DNA of 64,000 nt from Nitrospira sp. BO4. Its GTDB lineage: Bacteria > Nitrospirota > Nitrospiria > Nitrospirales > Nitrospiraceae. The first letter of the stretch is position 1. Each line of letters begins with the position of its first letter. Shown here in pieces: positions 2,708 through 34,833 of this stretch. The stretch spans positions 124,001 through 188,000 of the forward strand of contig JAMPUU010000026.1 in assembly GCA_030144965.1 (NCBI GenBank). Reading direction: 5' to 3'. Position numbers and translations under genes: made by a program. Under the pieces are notes generated by a model. The model saw only the letters and a list, made by a program, of their open reading frames with translations, ran no database searches and had not been told where the DNA came from.

Positions 2708-2984
2708 GAACGAACATCCTCCTGCACAATGAGGGGCGATTAGGAGGAGCGATTAGGCCATCCAGGCTGTTAGACATTAGGCCTCAGAAGGGCATATCAA
2801 CAATCAGGAATTTCCTGAGTTTCCTACATTATTATACTGGGACGATAAGGCATCATCAGTTCAAGCCGGCGGACCCTGCCCATGTTGTGGGTTACGGTTC
2901 CATACCCCTTAGGCAGCACCAGAAGAAAAGGAAACGGTGAGGTGAGAAATACACACGCAGGGGTGGTGCTGCGGGTAAAGGACG

Positions 2985-3245
2985 CTAGGCACGTAAATGA
3001 AAACTGTCGTCAGGCACGGGTCCGAAGTGCTTCCAGTTGGAATCAATCCACGCCTTCCCAGCCTCGATGGCTCTCACATGGGCTTCATCCTCGGATCGCG
3101 CAGTGATGGCGAGGGTCGGTAACGTCTTGGGATGGTCAGACCCATCCTCCGGCGCCGGCCATACCCGCGTTTCAACGGTCCAGCTGCCGGGCCCCTCGAC
3201 AGCCGCCGTCGTCGTGATGGTTCTTCCTTTGTAGCCGGTCTCCAT
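2985..3245 (-). CDS. Small YKGR-family protein, copy 1
   Basis: An 86-residue protein beginning METGYKGRTITTTA with an excellent ribosome site (GGAGGGAGCC before ATG). It has the pattern YKGRxIxT ... W ... A(R)SEDEAHVRAIEAGKAWIDSN shared with 16081-16296, a degenerate copy at 4011-4175 and, more distantly, 23022-23246. It is probably a small beta-rich fold ending in an amphipathic helix. Function unknown. It is expressed from the conserved 165-base leader region just upstream, which it shares with the unrelated receiver gene at 22045-22689. Confidence 0.65.
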   Translation of the reverse strand: METGYKGRTITTTAAVEGPGSWTVETRVWPAPEDGSDHPKTLPTLAITARSEDEAHVRAIEAGKAWIDSNWKHFGPVPDDSFHLRA

Positions 3246-3255
3246 GGCTCCCTCC

Positions 3256-3420
3256 GTGCCCTAGGACCAAGTCACTCCCATCATCGGTTGCGGTCCGTGC
3301 TCTGTTCAGTGAGGAAAAGAACCCGGTTGTCCTTGAAGACTCCTCCGCCAGGCCAACAAATTTTAAGCGTACGTAATATTTCTAGACAATTAGAGAAAAA
3401 CCTCAAGGAGAAGTCCGGAG
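3256..3420 (-). repeat. Conserved promoter/leader block, copy 1
   Basis: This 165-base segment, ending 10 bases before the start codon of the YKGR gene, is a close duplicate of 22694-22860. Long identical runs include the CCCTAGGA end, the ACTCCCATCATCGGTTGCG stretch and the promoter-like region at the far end. Reading frames are not conserved between the copies because of indels, so it looks non-coding. Confidence 0.75.
3360..3389 (-). promoter_or_regulatory. Probable sigma70-type promoter in the leader block
   Basis: On the minus strand TTGTCT (3389-3384) and TAAAAT (3365-3360) are 18 bases apart. Both hexamers and the spacing are kept in the second copy of the block. The predicted transcript would have a 5' leader of about 108 bases before the YKGR gene. 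Confidence 0.5.
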
Positions 3421-3444
3421 GTTGGGCTGGATCTATGAGGCAAT

Positions 3445-4751: not shown

Positions 4752-5576
4752 TTAGAGCCGAAGAAACAACCGGTGCTTATATAAGAACCACGCCGCCAGA
4801 TACATCATCGAAACGTGCATCATTGCATAGAGCAGCGACGCCAACTTCGGCGTGGCAATCACCTCAAAAAACGATCTGTACAGCAATGTACTAACGCCGA
4901 TCAACGAGAGCAGCTTGGCAAACAACACGGACATCACATAGATCGAAATCGGGTTCGCCCCATAAATCGCCAGCAACCCGCGCCAGTCTTTCCACCTCGA
5001 CACATCGATGAACCAGTAACAGCACGCAAATGTGAGAGCCGCATATCCCGAAGTCAGGAACGCGTAGGGCGGCGTCCAAAGCTTCTTGTTGACCGGCATG
5101 AAGAAATTGAGAAACACCGCGAGCGACACTAATGCGAGACCCCACACAAACATCCAAATCGTCTTCTCACGCGCGTCCAATCCTTCACGCTGCAACAACG
5201 TCCCACACAGCGTGCCGAACAGGAGATTCGAAATCGCCGGCAGCGTGCTGATAAGCCCCTCCGGGTCCCACACCTTTGCATACAGATGTCCCGACATGAG
5301 TAGATTGTCGATGTACTGCGCAAAATTCCCAATCGGATTCAATATGCCCGGACCATGGCCGACAATCCAAAGAAAAAACGGAAACACAAGATCGGCGAAG
5401 GTCCAGTCGTGCCACTTCGCGTGTCGCAGTGGTGCGAACGTCTCTTGTCCAAAGCTGCTGTTGTTTACCAAAATCATCGCCGCAATCGCCGCCCCGCGAA
5501 ATGCATCCAGTGAGATCAGGCGCCTGCTGTCACCGAATAGAATAAATTGTTGACGAGCGAGGGTGTTTTTGAACAC
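4752..5576 (-). pseudogene. Heparan-glucosaminide acyltransferase-like protein with internal deletion
   Basis: A 274-residue multi-spanning membrane protein of the NagX/HGSNAT-like (DUF5009/DUF1624) type. The start RRLISLDAFRGAAIAAMILV and the end region YIDNLLMSGHLY, WDPEGLISTLPAISNLLFGT and YGANPISIYVMS are classic. Full-length members have about 370 residues; here LVFPFFLWIVG joins directly to HGPGILNPIGN, so roughly 100 residues (several membrane helices and the RIPGVLQRIA segment) are missing without breaking the frame. It is probably inactive, though a shortened protein could still be made. The start codon appears to be GTG without a good ribosome site. Confidence 0.75.
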
Positions 5577-6046
5577 GTTGTACCTAAGCCGTTTGAATCA
5601 AATCCTAAAAGCGCTTGAGGGGCATAGTGATAGATGCGGGCAACACAAAACCGAAAAAGTTGGAGGCGTGAGACTCCCGGCAGATCAGCATGCACCGCTG
5701 TCACTACTCGGACAGATGATAATCATGCCCACTAAAGGTTGCCCACTGGTGATCGCCCTCATTCTGGAATCAGTGGTTCATACGCCCTCGGGGGGCGAGC
5801 GTCATCAACGAATGGAACGCTTCACGGTGCTACGCCTCTGAAAATGTCCTATGAAGCAGTCAAGAAACGAGCGGAGCCGCATAGGGAGATCGTGGGTGAA
5901 CTGCCGGACATGTGGAAGGACTCGGTGACACTCACGAGCTAAATGCGAAGGCAACAAGCCAACCGATATTCCCATGGGTGTTCCTTTCGCCAGAACTTCA
6001 ACGGCGAGACGAGAGAAATCTCCGTCGGGGATGGTGCCTCATAAAC
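5577..6046. other. Intergenic, no gene recognised
   Basis: About 470 bases between the deleted acyltransferase and the conserved block before the 6158 gene. Short open frames exist, but none has a ribosome site together with a recognisable sequence. Confidence 0.4.
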
Positions 6047-6157
6047 TAGGGAAGTTGCTAGTTCAGAGCATACCCTTGAGAATGCATAACTAAGGCGCTC
6101 TTCTAGAAATGCTTCCATAAGGATCGCCGTCAGCGGTGTAGAAAGAGCGGCTCCCTC
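6047..6157 (+). repeat. Conserved upstream block of the DEIRxF gene, copy 1
   Basis: This non-coding stretch matches 20157-20268 (shared runs GTTGCTAGTTCAGA, ATGCATAACTAAG and AGAGCGGCT). The similarity continues through the gene and past its end to the ATGAGTAATGTTCAC / ATGAGCAATGTTCAC stretch. It probably holds the promoter of the small gene. Confidence 0.6.
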
Positions 6158-6391
6158 ATGATTATACGCGACGAGATACGGCAATTTATGGTCGTCTCGG
6201 AAAGCTTGCTCGACGGTACCCTCAAAGTGGAGGAGCTGACACACATCGAACTAGAACTTCTAGAGTATTGTCTACTCAAGGTTGGTCAGAAGGTTCCGAT
6301 CAATCGAACACTGACGCATTATTCGATCCAGGACAATGCCGATCTCACATCGCAATCATTACCTAGTCGTTCAACTGCCAGGCGAGAGTAA
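6158..6391 (+). CDS. Small protein of the DEIRxF family, copy 2
   Basis: A 77-residue protein starting MIIRDEIRQFMVVSESLLDG, with ELTHIELELLEYCLLKVGQK in the middle. It is a paralogue of 2525-2707 and the nearest relative of 20269-20442, with which it also shares upstream and downstream DNA. The C-terminal 20 residues are rich in Ser/Arg and are absent from the second copy, which stops earlier. Function unknown; the helical pattern suggests a small regulator or oligomer. The ribosome site is weak. Confidence 0.6.
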   Translation: MIIRDEIRQFMVVSESLLDGTLKVEELTHIELELLEYCLLKVGQKVPINRTLTHYSIQDNADLTSQSLPSRSTARRE

Positions 6392-6464
6392 CTTGCATGA
6401 GTAATGTTCACTCAAGCATAAACACGATTTTTCTGCCTTGTCTTTAACCGCCGAACAGGACGTT

Positions 6465-16080: not shown

Positions 16081-16296
16081 ATGGAAACCTTATACAAAGG
16101 AAGAAAGATTTCCACTGCGGTGCGTCATATGGGAAGCAACTGGCTGCTCATCACGACTATCTGGCCAGCGGCATCGAACGAGACTGACGATCCGCAGGCG
16201 ATACAGACGATTGGCGTACCCAGCCAATCTGAAAAGGAAGCCCATGCCAAAGCGCTCGAAACTGGACAGCGATTGATTGATGCTAATTGTATTTAG
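16081..16296 (+). CDS. Small YKGR-family protein, copy 2
   Basis: A 71-residue protein starting METLYKGRKISTAVRHMG. The core W-LLITTIWPA and the tail QSEKEAHAKALETGQRLIDA match the 2985-3245 paralogue. GGAGTGAG precedes the ATG. It is followed by a broken copy of the EAVKIEAHGKSF gene, the same order as at 4.2-3.8 kb, so this two-gene unit was duplicated. Function unknown. Confidence 0.65.
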   Translation: METLYKGRKISTAVRHMGSNWLLITTIWPAASNETDDPQAIQTIGVPSQSEKEAHAKALETGQRLIDANCI

Positions 16297-16331
16297 CCGT
16301 TGCCCCTTCCATTTTGGTGGGGGGATACCTA

Positions 16332-16877: not shown

Positions 16878-16906
16878 TCATCCCGTCCGATTCGTTTAGA
16901 GCAATA

Positions 16907-17245
16907 CGACCGAACATCAAATCTTGATCAATAGGTGTTGATCAATAGGAGGTTTGGAGAACATACGCTACGTGAAATTAGGGCACCGCTTACCCGCCTC
17001 GGTCTTTCATTCAAGCCATCTGAAGAACCAGTTGCTCACACTACGGTGAGCCGGCTAACCCCCTGAAGCAATATTGGTATACCGTCCATCCGTCATGGGG
17101 TGAGGCAATGCTTCAGTAGCTGAGACCATAAGACTTACTGTGCAGGACCGTCTTTGCACAGAGTGAGGAGCCGGTCTAACGCTCGCTTGCTCGTGTGCTA
17201 TTCAAGTGAGGCCGCCACATCGAAGCATAAAGCTGCTTCCTCCAT
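16907..17245 (+). pseudogene. Duplicated 3' ends of the alpha-CTD-like and receiver genes
   Basis: This stretch matches 21826-22145 closely. It carries the last part of the plus-strand alpha-CTD-like gene (TTCGGAGAACATACG-type core, then the shared CCCCCTGAAGCAATATTGGT end) and, on the minus strand, the last codons of the receiver gene (KRALDRLLTLCKD). A 12-base word, TTGATCAATAGG, is tandemly duplicated at 16923-16950, breaking the frame. Neither gene is complete. Confidence 0.75.
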
Positions 17246-17378: not shown

Positions 17379-19409
17379 ATGGTTCGAATCACGCATCCAT
17401 TACTCGCCGGTGCTGGACAGTATCTAGCCGCCGCTTTTCTTGTTGCACTCGGGTTGAGCGCCTCTGGGTGTGGCGACTCGGCGTCCGTTAACCCAGCAGT
17501 GGAACTCAGCAGGCTGACCGTCAGCCCCGGCACACTTCAACCGGGGTTTAGCAGCGAAACAACCTCATACCGCGTCGATCTGACCAACGACATTACGACT
17601 GTGACCGTCACCGCCCAAGCGGCAGTCTCGGGCGATACCGTGACGATTAATGGTCACGCGACGACAAGTCGTACCATCACCCTCGATCCGGCCGGGCAAA
17701 CGACCGTCGTCAATATTGTAGTTTCAGAATCAACCAATAATTCGAGAACCTATACTATCCGTCTGATCAGAGCAGGACTAGTTGGAAACAACTCATTACA
17801 GAGCTTGGGGGTTTCCTCTGGAGCACTGGCTCCCGCATTCGATGCGAACGTGCAAACCTATACCGTTAGTGTTGCCAACAACGTCGGAAGCCTCAATGTC
17901 ACCTCCACACTGTCGGATCCTGCTGCAACGATGACCGTGAATGGACAGGCCGCGCTCTCTGGTCAAGCCCGTGCAATCACCCTGAATGGCCCGGGCCAAA
18001 GCACGAGCATCACGATTATCGTGACAGCCCAGAACGGCAATGACAAAGCCTACCTGGTGATGGTGAGCCGTGGAGTGTCAAACAATAACAATTTGCAGAG
18101 TCTGACCATCTCACCGGGAGCGTTAACCCCCCCTTTCAGCGCCGGTACCGTCGGCTACACGATCAATGTGGCAAGTACCGTGAACAGCGTGACGGTAACC
18201 CCCAGCGTGCAAGATAGCGCAGCAAGCATGACCGTGAATGGCCAAGCCACGAACTCAGGTCAGGCTCGAGCCATTACGTTGAACGGGCCGGGAGCAAATA
18301 CCTTTATCAATATCATCGTGAACTCTCAGAGCGGCCCCTCCAAAACCTATTCTGTGAACGTGCTGCGTGCCGCTCTCGTTGGGAACAACAACCTCTCAGC
18401 GTTGACAGTGTCGTCCGGTTCCTTATCTCCTGTCTTCAATTCCGGTACGGAAGACTACTCTGTGATTGTGACACCCGATGTCACTACCGTCACGGTGACG
18501 CCTGCACTTCAAAATTCTAGTTCCACTATGACGGTGAACGGGACACCCACCACCTCTGGCCAGGCTCGCCCCGTTACATTGCGTGCAGCGGGGTTGAGTA
18601 CCCTGATCAATATAGTGGTGACGGCGCAGAACGGAACTCAGAGGACCTATACGGTGGAAGTCGATCGTGCCGCATTGGGTGGGAACAACAACCTGTCGGC
18701 CTTGAGCGTATCTCCAGGCTCTTTGGCTCCTGCGTTTGTACCAAGCACTCTGACCTACACGGTGAACGTGGCAAACTCCTTCACCAGCGTGAATGTCGCT
18801 GCAACCAAAGCCGATGCCAATGCGGTGATATCTGAAGACGTGACAGCCGGAGCAGGAACAGCCACCGGCCAAGCAACCATACAACTCGGTGGGGAGGGGA
18901 CAGCGACTCTTGTGTTGATCGCGGTCACTGCCTCGAATGGCAGCTCCAAGACGTACCGAATCACCGTGGCCCGAGCCTCGTCATCGAGCAACAACAACTT
19001 GTCAGCCCTATCTGTCTCGCCAGGGTCCTTAACGCCTTCCTTTGCAGCGGGCAGAGAGGACTACACCACAGATGTAGCCAGCGATGTCACGAGCATGAAC
19101 CTTTCGGCTACGAAGGCCGACGCGAATGCCGTGCTGTCCGGCTCAGTGAGCGCCGGGACAGGGGTTTCCACAGGACAAGCCACCATTCCATTAAACGGAG
19201 CTGGAACCAGTACTTCTGTCTCCATCACGGTGACCGCTGCGAATGGCAGTTCGAAGACCTATTCCATCACCGTAAATCGTGCGGCCAATGGAGACGAGGA
19301 CAATAATGGCGGCAACCGGGGGAACGGGAGTAACAGAGGAAATGGAGGAAACAATGGGAATGGAGGAAATAACGGAAATGGAAACAACAAAAATAAGGAA
19401 GATGACTAA
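17379..19409 (+). CDS. Lipoprotein with six cadherin-like beta-sandwich repeats
   Basis: A 676-residue exported protein. The signal peptide ends in the lipobox-like LSASGC. Six repeats of about 95 residues follow, each opening with a motif like LSALSVSPGSLTPSF and containing Y(T/S)V-V, VT, MTVNG and KTY-(I/V)-V strands; this is the cadherin-like beta-sandwich domain common in surface proteins. After the last repeat comes a tail of about 45 residues almost wholly Asn/Gly (NGGNNGNGGNNGNGNN) ending acidic. It is likely a surface or matrix adhesin or scaffold; the tail may bind cations (inference). Repeats 2-6 are separated by linkers with (N)NNNL, typical of duplication. Confidence 0.85.
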   Translation: MVRITHPLLAGAGQYLAAAFLVALGLSASGCGDSASVNPAVELSRLTVSPGTLQPGFSSETTSYRVDLTNDITTVTVTAQAAVSGDTVTINGHATTSRTITLDPAGQTTVVNIVVSESTNNSRTYTIRLIRAGLVGNNSLQSLGVSSGALAPAFDANVQTYTVSVANNVGSLNVTSTLSDPAATMTVNGQAALSGQARAITLNGPGQSTSITIIVTAQNGNDKAYLVMVSRGVSNNNNLQSLTISPGALTPPFSAGTVGYTINVASTVNSVTVTPSVQDSAASMTVNGQATNSGQARAITLNGPGANTFINIIVNSQSGPSKTYSVNVLRAALVGNNNLSALTVSSGSLSPVFNSGTEDYSVIVTPDVTTVTVTPALQNSSSTMTVNGTPTTSGQARPVTLRAAGLSTLINIVVTAQNGTQRTYTVEVDRAALGGNNNLSALSVSPGSLAPAFVPSTLTYTVNVANSFTSVNVAATKADANAVISEDVTAGAGTATGQATIQLGGEGTATLVLIAVTASNGSSKTYRITVARASSSSNNNLSALSVSPGSLTPSFAAGREDYTTDVASDVTSMNLSATKADANAVLSGSVSAGTGVSTGQATIPLNGAGTSTSVSITVTAANGSSKTYSITVNRAANGDEDNNGGNRGNGSNRGNGGNNGNGGNNGNGNNKNKEDD

Positions 19410-19935: not shown

Positions 19936-20156
19936 AATTGCCGCTCGCTCTCTGCCAGGCGGTCATCTATTACAAGTGTTTATAAGGCAGTCTAAGATTG
20001 GACGGGTTGTACATCATGGGGTAGCCAGCGTGCAATAGAAAACGAGCAGGTATATTCTATAGCCTGAGACTTTACTTAGGAACACTTATTGGCGCTGGAT
20101 ATGTTCTCACGCATATACATGCATATAAATACGTATGAACACGACACGCAGCATCA

Positions 20157-20268
20157 ACTAGGAGAGTTGCTAGTTCAGAAGATACCCTTCCGAATGCATA
20201 ACTAAGACGGTCCTATAGCAATGCGTCCATATTGACCGCCATCACGATCGCAGAAGAGCGGCTCTCTC
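20157..20268 (+). repeat. Conserved upstream block of the DEIRxF gene, copy 2
   Basis: Matches 6047-6157; both copies keep the GTTGCTAGTTCAGA run and end at the start codon of a DEIRxF gene. Confidence 0.6.
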
Positions 20269-20442
20269 ATGACCTTACGTGATGAGATTCGGCATTTTAT
20301 GGTCATATCGGAAACCTTGCTCGACGGCTCCATCAAAGCAGAGGACCTGACATACATCGAACTCGAACTTCTCCAGTATTATCTATGCAGGGTTGGCCAG
20401 AAGTTCCCGACCCACCCTAAACTGACGCATTCGTCCTTGTGA
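20269..20442 (+). CDS. Small protein of the DEIRxF family, copy 3
   Basis: A 57-residue protein reading MTLRDEIRHFMVISETLLDG, then SIKAEDLTYIELELLQYYLC and RVGQKFPTHPKLTHSSL. It is the nearest paralogue of 6158-6391 and shares flanking DNA on both sides, so it arose by segmental duplication. It ends 20 residues earlier because of a TGA. Substitutions are mostly conservative, suggesting the protein was or is under selection. Confidence 0.55.
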   Translation: MTLRDEIRHFMVISETLLDGSIKAEDLTYIELELLQYYLCRVGQKFPTHPKLTHSSL

Positions 20443-20605
20443 GACAATGGCGATGTCCCATCGCAATCATTGCCGAGCGGGTCAATGGTCAGGGGAGAGT
20501 AACGTATATGAGCAATGTTCACCGCCAACGAGTTTGCGTCTGACGACACATCGAACATACTGTTCAGACTGAGCCACTACCAGCTTATGGCTGAGAGACG
20601 AAAAG

Positions 20606-21238: not shown

Positions 21239-21976
21239 ATGAATCGGCCCTGGTCCAAAATTCTTCATCTCCTCACGCACGGATTTTCGGTCTTGGCGCG
21301 CTACGTCCCTCCTGTCCCGTTGTACCATGTGCGCCCGAGTCGTGCCGTGAGTGTGGGGGACTGTGGTGTGCCAGAGCACTCGCATCGGACCAAGAAAGCG
21401 GCCGAGCGTTGTCAGCCAAAGCCTATCAATAGGACGGCTCGAATTGTTCCTACAAAGGAAGAGCAAGCCGCTGATGCCAGGCGTTTATTTGAAATGGTCT
21501 TATCCGGAGCGACATATTCACAGGCGGCGACGACGTTTGGTACGTCAATGACACTGTGTAGGAAGAGGTTCTTTAGATTGGCGCGCCTGACGGTTCGCAG
21601 GGGTTCACCGGCTCATCGATACGAACCACCGTTTGATGAGCAGCAGGTGGCGGTGATGAGGCGACACAAAGAAGCCTGGCTACAAGCCTATGACCAAGCA
21701 GTGGCACCCCTGTCGCTCTCTGAGTGTCAAAGGCCAGAAACTGTTTCGATCTGTCAACTCAAGTTGAGCTCCTATACTGAAACCTCCCTCAGAAATGCTG
21801 ACATCACCACACTTGCTGACCTCCTCAATACGACCGAACATCAGATCTTAATCAATAGGAGGTTTGGGGAACATACGTTGCGTGAAATTAGGGCACTGCT
21901 TACCCGCCTCGGTCTTTCATTTAAGCCATCTGAAGAATCAGTTGCTCACACCACGGTGAGACGGCTAACCCCCTGA
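21239..21976 (+). CDS. HTH protein with RNA polymerase alpha-CTD-like domain
   Basis: Up to 245 residues. The middle holds a helix-turn-helix-like stretch (MVLSGATYSQAATTFGTSMT) and the C-terminus resembles the alpha subunit C-terminal domain: ADITTLADLLNTTEHQILIN, RRFGEHTLREIRALLTRLGL. In RpoA this helix-hairpin-helix unit binds UP elements and activators, so a DNA- or regulator-binding role is likely. The N-terminal CG...HRTKKAAERC stretch may bind zinc. The exact start is uncertain, and a minus-strand frame overlaps the first 230 bases. The 3' end is duplicated at 16.9-17.2 kb. Confidence 0.6.
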   Translation: MNRPWSKILHLLTHGFSVLARYVPPVPLYHVRPSRAVSVGDCGVPEHSHRTKKAAERCQPKPINRTARIVPTKEEQAADARRLFEMVLSGATYSQAATTFGTSMTLCRKRFFRLARLTVRRGSPAHRYEPPFDEQQVAVMRRHKEAWLQAYDQAVAPLSLSECQRPETVSICQLKLSSYTETSLRNADITTLADLLNTTEHQILINRRFGEHTLREIRALLTRLGLSFKPSEESVAHTTVRRLTP

Positions 21977-22044
21977 AGCAATATTGGTATACCGTCCATG
22001 CGTCATGGGGTGGGACAATGCTTCAGTAGCTGAGACCATGAGGC

Positions 22045-22689
22045 TTACTGTGATGGACTGTCATTGCATAGAGTGAGGAGACGGTCTAAGGCTCGTTTCC
22101 TGGTGAGTTCTTGAATGGAGGCCGCCGTATCGAAGAGATTTCCTTCCTCCTCAGTCGACAGAAGCGGGCGCTTGCTCGTCTTGAACATCTGTAATGTTCT
22201 GTCGACCAATTCATTGGCAGCCGCAAGATGTGGTTCAGCGGTGAAATCCCGAGGATATGTCTCCATATGGTCTTGAAACGTCGCTATTGCCCGCACTCTC
22301 GACGCGAGCAATTTCATCAATTGATTATGCCATAGGGCCTGTTTGACCGCATGGACAGCCTCATGAGGAACGACGGGCTTCGCGATGAAATCCAGCGCAT
22401 CCCGTTGGAGGACCCGATAAGCCGATGTGCGGTCTCGCTCACCGGCAGTGACAAGAATGGGCGCGACGGAACCCTGGGCGGCTTTATATTTGAGGAATCG
22501 ATACGCTTGCAGCAGAATGAGACTCATTGCCATGGTGTCGTACGATGCCAGGCCACTCTTCCGACATAGTTCCTCGACTGAAGTACAGATATCGACCATC
22601 ACGTGCGGGAGGTGATCAGACAAGATGCGCGGGAAATGATCGAGGGTATGAGGATCGGTGTCAGCGAGGATAATCGTTTGGCGGAACAT
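22045..22689 (-). CDS. Degenerate response regulator receiver with helical C-terminus
   Basis: A 214-residue protein. The N-terminal 120 residues follow the receiver fold: ILADTDPHTLDHFPRIL at the acidic pocket, VAPILVTAG for the Thr strand, and DFIAKPVVPHEAVHAV with the conserved Lys. The position of the phosphoacceptor Asp reads TMAMSLILLQAY with no Asp, so it is likely phosphorylation-independent. The C-terminal 90 residues are helical and unassigned. Its promoter region is the conserved leader block shared with 2985-3245. The 3' end overlaps no gene but is duplicated at 17.2 kb. Confidence 0.75.
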   Translation of the reverse strand: MFRQTIILADTDPHTLDHFPRILSDHLPHVMVDICTSVEELCRKSGLASYDTMAMSLILLQAYRFLKYKAAQGSVAPILVTAGERDRTSAYRVLQRDALDFIAKPVVPHEAVHAVKQALWHNQLMKLLASRVRAIATFQDHMETYPRDFTAEPHLAAANELVDRTLQMFKTSKRPLLSTEEEGNLFDTAASIQELTRKRALDRLLTLCNDSPSQ

Positions 22690-22693
22690 CTGT

Positions 22694-22860
22694 GTGCCCT
22701 AGGAACAAGTGACTCCCATCATCGGTTGCGATCCCTGCGCTGTTCAGTAATGAAAAGAAGCCGGCTTCCTTGAAGACTCCTCTGTCAAGCCAACAAATTT
22801 TAAGCGTAGGTAATATTCCAAGACAATTAGAGAGAAACCTCAAGGAGAAGTCTGGAAGCT
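22694..22860 (-). repeat. Conserved promoter/leader block, copy 2
   Basis: Near-duplicate of 3256-3420, placed directly before the degenerate receiver gene. It keeps the same promoter-like hexamers and the same junction near the start codon. Confidence 0.75.
22797..22826 (-). promoter_or_regulatory. Probable promoter in leader block copy 2
   Basis: TTGTCT (22826-22821) and TAAAAT (22802-22797), 18 bases apart, are identical in both hexamers and spacing to the first copy. The predicted leader is about 100 bases. Confidence 0.5.
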
Positions 22861-23021
22861 GGCTGATGGGTGAACGAGAATTGCAGATAGCGCCGCTGAC
22901 AGATAATGGAAGTTAGAGATCTCACGTCGGCTAATTCGCAATAGTTCTCAAGGACTAGCGGCGATGGACGCAACGAGAATAGTCAGGAGCATGCAAGCCG
23001 TGGTCATCTCTCGCTCTTGTG

Positions 23022-23246
23022 TTATCTAACCGATGAGCCAGGAATCTTGCCATCTATGATGAGCTGGCCATAGGCGATGCACTGGGCCGTGGCTTCTTCG
23101 AATATCGTATATCGACCAGTCCTCACGAAATGACGGCTATCCTCCTCGTCCTTCGTTGACCAGGAAATGAAGACATTCAATTCCCACATTCCCGTATCCA
23201 CGAGTAGCCGAGGGGCGGGCTGAATAGTATAGCCTTTGTAAGTCAC
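23022..23246 (-). CDS. Small YKGY-family protein (distant YKGR relative)
   Basis: A 74-residue protein starting MTYKGYTIQPAPRLLVDTG, with WELNVFISWSTKDEEDSRHF and a C-terminal EEATAQCIAYGQLIIDGKIP. The layout (YKGxxI, central W and hydrophobic strand, EAxxxxxxxGxxxID end) matches the YKGR proteins, with more divergence. It is a small alpha/beta fold of unknown function. Confidence 0.6.
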   Translation of the reverse strand: MTYKGYTIQPAPRLLVDTGMWELNVFISWSTKDEEDSRHFVRTGRYTIFEEATAQCIAYGQLIIDGKIPGSSVR

Positions 23247-23273: not shown

Positions 23274-23501
23274 TCAGGACAATTTCTGGGCGGTCCGATC
23301 ATTGGTAGGAGACCGGTCCTCTGTATGAACCCGTGAGGGCTTCCAACACGCACTATCCAGATACCAGGTTCCTGTTTGTTTACAGCGGACACAGTACGTT
23401 TGGAACATGTTTGGAGGGAGAAACGTATTCTGGGTTTTCTCTTGGCAGACCGCGCACAGGAGGAAGCAGGTATTCGAGAAAAAGAGTGCGTCGATTTTCA
23501 T
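23274..23501 (-). CDS. Hypothetical Cys-pair protein
   Basis: A 75-residue frame with CAVC and CVRC pairs (LLCAVCQEKTQN; QTYCVRCKQTGTWYLD), consistent with one zinc site. AGAGG lies about 8 bases before the ATG. The N-terminal LFFSNTCFLLC is unusually hydrophobic. It may start later, at MFQTYCVRC. It lies in the same direction as, and 27 bases upstream of, the YKGY gene, so co-transcription is plausible. No family recognised. Confidence 0.45.
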   Translation of the reverse strand: MKIDALFFSNTCFLLCAVCQEKTQNTFLPPNMFQTYCVRCKQTGTWYLDSACWKPSRVHTEDRSPTNDRTAQKLS

Positions 23502-24213: not shown

Positions 24214-25134
24214 TTACGGCTGCATGTCCTGGGCAAGACGGAAGCCGACATTGAGGCCCCGATGACTGGCATAGAGCCAGATGCGGATTGAGGTACGCAA
24301 AAACCCTGGCGTGAGGTACCAGGATCCACCCCGAAGCACGCGCGCGCCGCAATGACCACCATGCGCCTCTAACCATGCCGTGCCATCTTCCGGCGCCCCA
24401 TCATAGGCTGAATGCGCACAATCCTCGACCCATTCCCACACGTTCCCACTCAGGTCATGGAGCCCGAAACTGTTCTGCAGCTTCGTGCCGATCTCCGCCG
24501 TGCGACTTCCTGAATTGTCCGTAAAAATGGCGTACGCCCCAACCTGCGATTCCTCAGAGGTGCCTGCCCATTGTTCCTCCTTATCGCCGCTGCGTGCCGC
24601 ATATTCCCATTCCGATTCCGTCGGCAGTCGATAGCGTGTGCCCGTTTGGGCGGACAGCCATGCCGCATAGGCTTTTGCATCCTCCCAAGAGACGTTCATG
24701 ACCGGGTGAGAGCCGCGTCCCCACCCCTGGTCTTCCGGCAAATGTCGTCCTGTGGCGATCGCAAACCGGTCGTATTCGTCAAAGGTCACTTCATATTTTC
24801 CGAGCTTAAAGGGCTTGATCGTCACTGGATGAACCGGGTTGCGCCATGATTCGCCTAACTTCTCCACATCACCCATCTGAAAAGAACCGGCTGCAATCTG
24901 CACCATCTGAGGCGGCACAAGGATACTGACAAAGAACGATTGAAGCTTGAGCGCGGCCTGATCGATGGTATAGCCCTTCTGCCAGAGCCACGACGTGCCC
25001 AACACGAGCAGCACCATGGCAGCAAGGGCAGCGTTGAGGACCTGGCGTACCCGTCGGTTCGTGGGCAAATACTTCTTCATCGCTTCGGTGAGACCGATCT
25101 CAGTTCGGCCATACTCGCGATCTTCCTGGGCCAA
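24214..25134 (-). CDS. Formylglycine-generating-enzyme-like (SUMF1/FGE-sulfatase) protein
   Basis: About 306 residues: a short helical N-terminus, one membrane segment (VLNAALAAMVLLVLGTSWLW), then an FGE-type domain with PVHPVTIKPFKLGKYEVTFD, HPVMNVSWEDAKAYAAWL, RYRLPTESEWEYAARSG, GLHDLSGNVWEWVEDC and RVLRGGSWY. True sulfatase-modifying enzymes need two Cys; here only scattered Cys (EDCAHSAYDG, GGHCGARVLRG) are seen, so it may be a binding or regulatory variant. The reading frame stays open upstream to about 25.27 kb but has no ATG or GTG; TTG is the nearest start. The N-terminus may have been lost. The next upstream unit is repeat-rich, decayed DNA. Confidence 0.8.
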   Translation of the reverse strand: MAQEDREYGRTEIGLTEAMKKYLPTNRRVRQVLNAALAAMVLLVLGTSWLWQKGYTIDQAALKLQSFFVSILVPPQMVQIAAGSFQMGDVEKLGESWRNPVHPVTIKPFKLGKYEVTFDEYDRFAIATGRHLPEDQGWGRGSHPVMNVSWEDAKAYAAWLSAQTGTRYRLPTESEWEYAARSGDKEEQWAGTSEESQVGAYAIFTDNSGSRTAEIGTKLQNSFGLHDLSGNVWEWVEDCAHSAYDGAPEDGTAWLEAHGGHCGARVLRGGSWYLTPGFLRTSIRIWLYASHRGLNVGFRLAQDMQP

Positions 25135-25295: not shown

Positions 25296-25480
25296 TGGAC
25301 CGCAGCAAAAATTACTTTGGCCCAGAAAAACAGGTGATTTTGCAACGTGAAGTGAATGCCGCCTGAATGTACTCCCTCGCAGCTTACCACACCGGTGAAT
25401 TTGGCGGCAAGGAAACCCGTCCAGCGAATGACACATTACTCTTTCCCTAAGGCCCAGCGGGGCAGTTGACCTGCGGCTTC
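25296..25480. repeat. 185-base dispersed repeat, copy 1
   Basis: Matches 34458-34643 along its full length, from TGGACCGCAGCAAAAATTAC to GACCTGCGGCTTC, with scattered substitutions. No long conserved frame on either strand. Confidence 0.7.
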
Positions 25481-25532
25481 ACCATCCTATTTCTGACAGA
25501 TTGGTTTTGATGCTATGCGCGCCGAGTTCTAT

Positions 25533-25852: not shown

Positions 25853-26391
25853 AATTGTCTCTCTGTGAGTGACGCCACGGCCGTAGCGAGCCTACGATAC
25901 GCTCGAAATCCATACGAGTAAGCTCCAGCAAGAGAAGTGCCACTAATGCGAATGTGTTCCTGAGGTAAAATGCAGGTAAAAACCTCCTCATCCCCTCATT
26001 GTGGGTGCCTTTTGCAACACTGGTCGAGAGTGGCCTGTCGCATTAGTCCCCCCAAATGAGTGTGCGGCGTATCAAACGGAGGCGACTAGAGAGACCCATA
26101 TTACATGGTGAGTCGTTCTCGCGGTTCCAAGTACGAACTGAGAACTATAGCTAACTGGCAGACGGTGCAGTTCCAGCCTCTGTGAGCGGCTCTAACTGAC
26201 ACTTCACTAAATTACAATTAGCGTACTCTATCAGTCCGGCCTCAAGATTTCCTCTTGAGGTTGTTATCGAATGGCCTTGAAATATTACCTACGCTTAAAA
26301 TGTCCTGGCGTGACAGAACAGCACTCACACCACCGAGAAGCAAGTGATCCGACGCGACGACAAAATGTCGAATCTCTGTTACCCTTCCCAT

Positions 26392-26547
26392 GCTCAGGTC
26401 CAAGTGATCGGTTTATCGGTGAATACGGGAGGGGAAGCCTTCAATGCCATCACGACTGCGGGAGCTCGGACGTTATTGACGAAAGAAGCTGCTGTGGAGC
26501 AGCTGCATGGCGTCATCCAGCAAGCGATGCAGGTATCCGTCGATTAA
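26392..26547 (+). pseudogene. C-terminal fragment of a NarL-type receiver
   Basis: Reads QVQVIGLSVNTGGEAFNAIT, TAGARTLLTKEAAVEQLHGV and IQQAMQ. This is the last third of a receiver like the one in the hybrid kinase (IIGLSV ... AYLTKE). The front two thirds, with the phosphoacceptor, are absent. Confidence 0.65.
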
Positions 26548-34457: not shown

Positions 34458-34643
34458 TGGACCGCAGCAAAAATTACTTTGGCCCGGAAACACAGGTGAT
34501 TTTACAACGTGACCTGAATGCCGCCTGAATGTACTCGCTCGCAGGTTACCACACCGGTGAATTTGTCAGCAAGGAAACCCATACAGAGGATGACACATTA
34601 CATCCTTCCCTAGGGTCCAGCAGGGCAGTTGACCTGCGGCTTC
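34458..34643. repeat. 185-base dispersed repeat, copy 2
   Basis: Same element as 25296-25480. The right flank (TTCTCAGGACTAT) is also seen at 31.6 kb. Confidence 0.7.
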
Positions 34644-34833
34644 TCAGGACTATTCAGGTTTACAGACGGCACGGCCTGGCCCGTAAGGCTCGGAACACGT
34701 GTTTGAATATGCAATGCGCTCCTCAGATTTCAGAACCATGGAGTGCCTGCCATACCGATCGACCCGCAGTTTAGAAAAGCAACTTTAGCATCCAACTCAA
34801 GCTCACTCAAACCAATCAATCACCTGCTGTACA

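Follow-up and report, generated by a model that had tools for sequence, protein, structure and literature searches.

Intergenic region (IGR) switching, or horizontal regulatory transfer, has been described as the exchange of the intergenic region upstream of a gene for one that is not homologous to it (Piggy paper, PMC5890482, with references to earlier work). There, switching is detected as allelic variants that isolates of the same species carry at a given locus (PMC5890482). The locus analyzed here resembles these cases in that a non-homologous upstream region now stands before a receiver-like gene, but it differs from them in that the switched state is found in both genomes examined, and the case for a switch is drawn from within-genome paralogs and from homologs in other species. 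We consider it likely, with a probability of roughly 75%, that a repeated noncoding block belongs upstream of a small gene (the YKGR gene), was duplicated in one species and was switched once to a pseudo-receiver gene, in a case of ordinary promoter switching.

Nitrospira is a genus known for nitrification, and to our knowledge its regulation has been little studied. The window, by which we mean the whole stretch of 64,000 nucleotides that was analyzed, corresponds to positions 124001-188000 of contig C26 in a 4.7-Mb Nitrospira genome. A sequence-only reading had described 3256-3420 and 22694-22860 as near-copies that stand before the minus-strand start codons of unrelated genes, and both parts of this description held. 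Minus-strand positions 3256-3425 and 22694-22862 aligned by blastn with 88.2% identity over 170 nt (E = 1.5e-55), and the local alignment score of 239 compares with a maximum of 33 among 300 shuffles, so that the likeness is far above chance. We refer to these copies as b1 (3256-3429) and b2 (22694-22866). Behind b1 lies a gene for a CV_2116-like protein and behind b2 one with a sub-threshold Response_reg match; the respective ATGs, at 3245 and 22689, are separated from the shared sequence by 10 nt in b1 and 4 nt in b2. Searching the same genome with the block revealed two extra copies, bringing the number to four: a partial, core-only copy on the plus strand, b3 (26232-26317; matched at 26240-26312 with 78% identity, and 76 to 80% identical to b1 and b2 over 81 to 88 nt), and b4 on contig C12 (195463-195614, 75%). 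Both had been missed by the first reading, as had the YKGR-family neighbor of the C12 copy.

Stops break every sense frame in b1 and b2, and the block is therefore noncoding. Two candidates for a coding block were rejected. A 144-aa open frame across b4 is absent from the other copies, and a partly shared antisense frame (QQILSVGNI...NLKEKSG) has no common start and, as judged by eye, shows no third-position bias in its changes. A Shine-Dalgarno-like GGAGGG present in b1 and b4 lies outside the shared block, and b2 is without it.

The block resembles sigma-70-type promoters in having two hexamers with 18-nt spacing, the second of which carries A at position 2 and T at position 6. It differs from them in matching the consensus at 9 of 12 positions, in having no TG before the second hexamer, and in that the pair is not intact in two of the four copies. 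As previously reported, TTGTCT and TAAAAT with their 18-base spacing are identical in b1 (3389-3360, minus strand) and b2 (22826-22797, minus strand), with the downstream ATGs 107 to 115 nt beyond the second hexamer. This is the only promoter-like pair in either region, against a chance expectation of 0.2 to 0.3 per region (0.2 in shuffles of the b1 region). Since overall identity is already 88%, the identity of the hexamers between b1 and b2 is in itself not notable (0.88^12 is ∼0.2). In b3 the pair reads TGGCCT-18-TAAAAT, with the first hexamer not intact. The b4 copy has a spacer shortened by a deletion of about seven bases and TCAAAT as its second hexamer, and it shows a different pair. 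A weak sigma-70-like promoter common to b1 and b2 is nevertheless plausible, as the block is noncoding, abuts a start codon, carries the hexamer pair in its two main copies and stays with the YKGR gene. If the block acts as a promoter, as is likely, the YKGR and pseudo-receiver genes would be transcribed from equivalent promoters.

The first reading had gone further and suggested a shared regulatory leader or RNA element. A shared putative promoter or upstream region is the part of that suggestion that stands as plausible; the RNA element is not supported, because the leader folds no better than shuffles. According to such a proposal, a riboswitch-like or small RNA-responsive leader would have been kept by selection before two genes. 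A leader of ∼100 nt that is 88% conserved between b1 and b2 would fit it, and so would the one inverted repeat of the consensus, an imperfect repeat of 16 bp (columns 21-36 and 84-100) in which 90.5% of cells are paired, more than in slid versions, with two double changes. However, the leader folds are less stable than those of shuffles (z = +1.59, +1.21, and +1.69), and folding with covariance counts brought no support either, as the number of double changes was reached by 82 of 500 shuffles. Single folds of the repeat gave z values of only about −1 in b1, b2, and b4 and 0.1 in b3. The repeat straddles the putative promoter: the first hexamer occupies columns 41-46, so that the left arm precedes it and would fall outside a transcript started there. 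A search of Rfam with the block returned no match, and the block occurs in one species only. As neither Rfam nor the single folds, the consensus fold or the pair counts spoke for it, we rejected a structured RNA element as a candidate and regard a regulatory RNA leader as very unlikely.

The YKGR gene (2985-3245, minus strand; 86 aa) matches the CV_2116 protein family (NF046097) only weakly, with 22.9 bits against a curated cutoff of 58, and the named relatives found for its protein are from Nitrospira sp. MAGs. It has a close paralog on C12, and homology between the two loci runs unbroken over leader and gene (L003:1234-1652 versus window positions 2983-3409; 428 nt, 81%). Because the C12 copy of the block precedes this paralog, we take the block to be the YKGR gene's own upstream region. 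Between the paralogs, dN is 0.055 and dS is 0.72 (dN/dS of ∼0.08), which indicates that the gene is under purifying selection and maintained by it, with the block travelling along and staying attached across a dS of ∼0.7. Identity between b1 and b4 is 76% in the leader (55/72 over the last 72 columns) versus 85% in the coding part, and is thus not higher in the leader. The earlier argument that conservation outside coding DNA points to a regulatory element is accordingly weaker than claimed, because the copies are paralogous duplicates within a single species and lie in a region rich in coding and noncoding duplications, although a role as an upstream region remains plausible.

Directly upstream of the C12 copy lies a gene for a small CxxC protein. 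Its paralog in the window (23274-23501, minus strand; 79% nucleotide identity to L003:1697-1991 and 77% amino acid identity) is found ∼0.4 kb upstream of b2, in the same strand and order as at C12. Between the CxxC gene and b2 stands a CV_2116 family gene (23022-23246, minus strand), which, with 93.8 bits to NF046097, is above the cutoff of 58.

The gene behind b2 (22045-22689, minus strand) encodes 214 aa and matches PF00072 below threshold (E = 4e-4); alignment of its homologs showed that it is without the canonical phospho-acceptor Asp. These homologs, at 34 to 50% identity, come from four other species and, as paralogs, from the same genome, and since the Asp is substituted in every member of the alignment, we refer to them as a pseudo-receiver family. 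Members of ∼210 aa (22045-22689, L018, L019, L021, L022, L025, and L028) share a conserved C-terminal region with the motifs ALW...LL..R.R and AL.RL. No similarity to the block was detected in the 350 nt upstream of eight receiver homologs, and some of these do share upstream sequence with each other (G004 with own_C19, and G034 with own_C12). Receiver homologs, whether in this genome or in those of other Nitrospira, stand behind other upstream regions, and the block is therefore new to the receiver gene at 22.7 kb. The homologs can be aligned from about residues 2 to 5 onward, which places the switch point at the start codon.

As in described IGR switching, the receiver gene thus stands behind an upstream region with no homology to those of related receivers. 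The two upstream variants were not found at one locus among strains: G065, the only other genome of the species that was compared, also carries the block, and no orthologous unswitched locus was found. We regard the evidence for a switch, which comes from sequence comparison, as a paralog-based equivalent of the allelic test.

The partial copy b3 is chimeric. Its core (columns 41-70) matches b1 at 26 of 30 and b2 at 27 of 30 positions, versus 29/40 and 26/40 in the part upstream, and the copy then runs into the leader of another family (26327-26376 versus L043:10592-10641 on C12, 88%), with a receiver-like C-terminal fragment behind it at 26344-26547. That the core is the best-kept part of b3 would also be consistent with an operator: a transcription factor would recognize the block (the CCTTGA...TCAAGG dyad around the promoter, for instance), and selection would have kept it for coregulation of the YKGR and pseudo-receiver genes. 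Both arms of this dyad are present in b1 and b2, but b3 has lost the right arm and b4 has a changed one, and no more copies of the block were found before other genes in the genome. We therefore consider an operator defining such a regulon unlikely.

When sequence and profile searches were extended to related genomes, the block proved to be confined to one species: no convincing copy was found in 77 other Nitrospira species, none was found in plasmids or phages, and a profile of all copies detected no further ones in its own genome. Two marginal profile matches in other species (E = 0.01 to 0.02) were treated as chance. The core pattern had no match in genome contigs and one in viral contigs, which otherwise did not resemble the block profile. 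In G065, the three C26 copies are found at syntenic places and the C12 copy is missing. Insertion of a mobile or repetitive element of the MITE or REP type, landing upstream of genes by chance, would explain several dispersed copies, the similar 5′ edges of b1, b2, and b3 and the inverted repeat that surrounds the core. A mobile repeat was nevertheless rejected, as there are four copies rather than many and the repeat arms are internal instead of at the copy ends; moreover, the homology between b1 and b4 enters the YKGR gene without an edge, and phages and plasmids are free of the block. We regard such an element as highly improbable.

The surroundings of the block are themselves a mosaic of duplicated modules. 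A 3.8-kb stretch around the C12 copy has 39 paralogous places in G065, and the best of these together cover almost all of it in discrete modules of ∼110 to 820 nt. Islands of shuffled paralogous modules were observed at L043:10446-16945 (C12), in positions 1-31500 of the window and at a further place in G065 (L075; G065:C1:4465001-4485000), and many of the modules consist of a small gene plus 100 to 170 nt of upstream sequence. The G065 island carries modules of the 18- to 26-kb part of the window in a different order, together with a 95% copy of the end of the gene for a 676-aa protein (17379-19409, plus strand) that has six Cadherin-like beta-sandwich repeats (PF12733). A repeat family comprises 6040-6411, 20152-20522 and copies on C25, C17, and C28, several of which encode a conserved small protein (GSLMTLRDEIRQFMVVSESLLDG...). 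A noncoding duplicate (25296-25491 and 34458-34654, ∼90%; also delimited as 25296-25480 and 34458-34643) occurs nowhere else in the genome, and an FGE-sulfatase gene (24214-25134, minus strand) lies ∼160 nt downstream of one copy. Relative to the window, G065 has ∼290 extra bases at 5361, and beyond 31517 the two cease to be collinear for 20 kb or more of G065. In a region composed of paralogous modules shuffled in this way, duplicated upstream blocks before different genes are to be expected.

Such a setting raises the question of whether the block before the receiver gene is a neutral remnant, functionless debris of segmental duplication. The region is indeed full of duplicated fragments and gene remnants, including a receiver tail at 16902-17225 (duplicate of 21826-22135) and a CV_2116-like copy with an internal TAG stop (16081-16305, plus strand) that is present in both genomes of the species; b2 is also slightly further from b4 than b1 is (50/72 versus 55/72). 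The receiver frame, however, is intact, requires some promoter and begins 4 nt past the block, and b2 has retained both hexamers and their spacing. A neutral remnant is thus a minor possibility, and we think it improbable. It is likewise doubtful that the islands of this species are built by an active process that copies and reshuffles promoter-plus-small-gene modules in a cassette-like manner, giving rise to new pairings such as the fusion of block and receiver gene. No integron-cassette-like motif common to nine module boundaries was seen by eye, and our search of the literature on Nitrospira duplications found nothing relevant.

We thus favor a duplicated YKGR upstream region that was switched once to the pseudo-receiver gene, which makes the block an instance of a known phenomenon, IGR switching, and defines no new element. 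In the ancestral state, the block would have consisted of a putative promoter and an unstructured 5′ leader of ∼100 nt belonging to a small CV_2116-like gene. In the simplest scenario, an ancestral unit of CxxC gene, block and YKGR gene would have been duplicated and shuffled within the genome. The locus at 3.2 kb (b1) would have retained block and YKGR gene, and at C12 (b4) the block still precedes YKGR. At 22.7 kb, the CxxC gene and the block would have been retained, with a CV_2116 family gene gained between them and the receiver gene taking the place of YKGR, and b3 is a fourth, partial copy before a receiver fragment. The proposed direction, with YKGR first and the receiver gene second, is suggested by three loci in one species. 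The block would be a clear example, within one genome, of an upstream region that moved between gene families, and the wider mosaic, in which genes are shuffled together with their upstream sequence, could show the way in which orphan regulators acquire new control.
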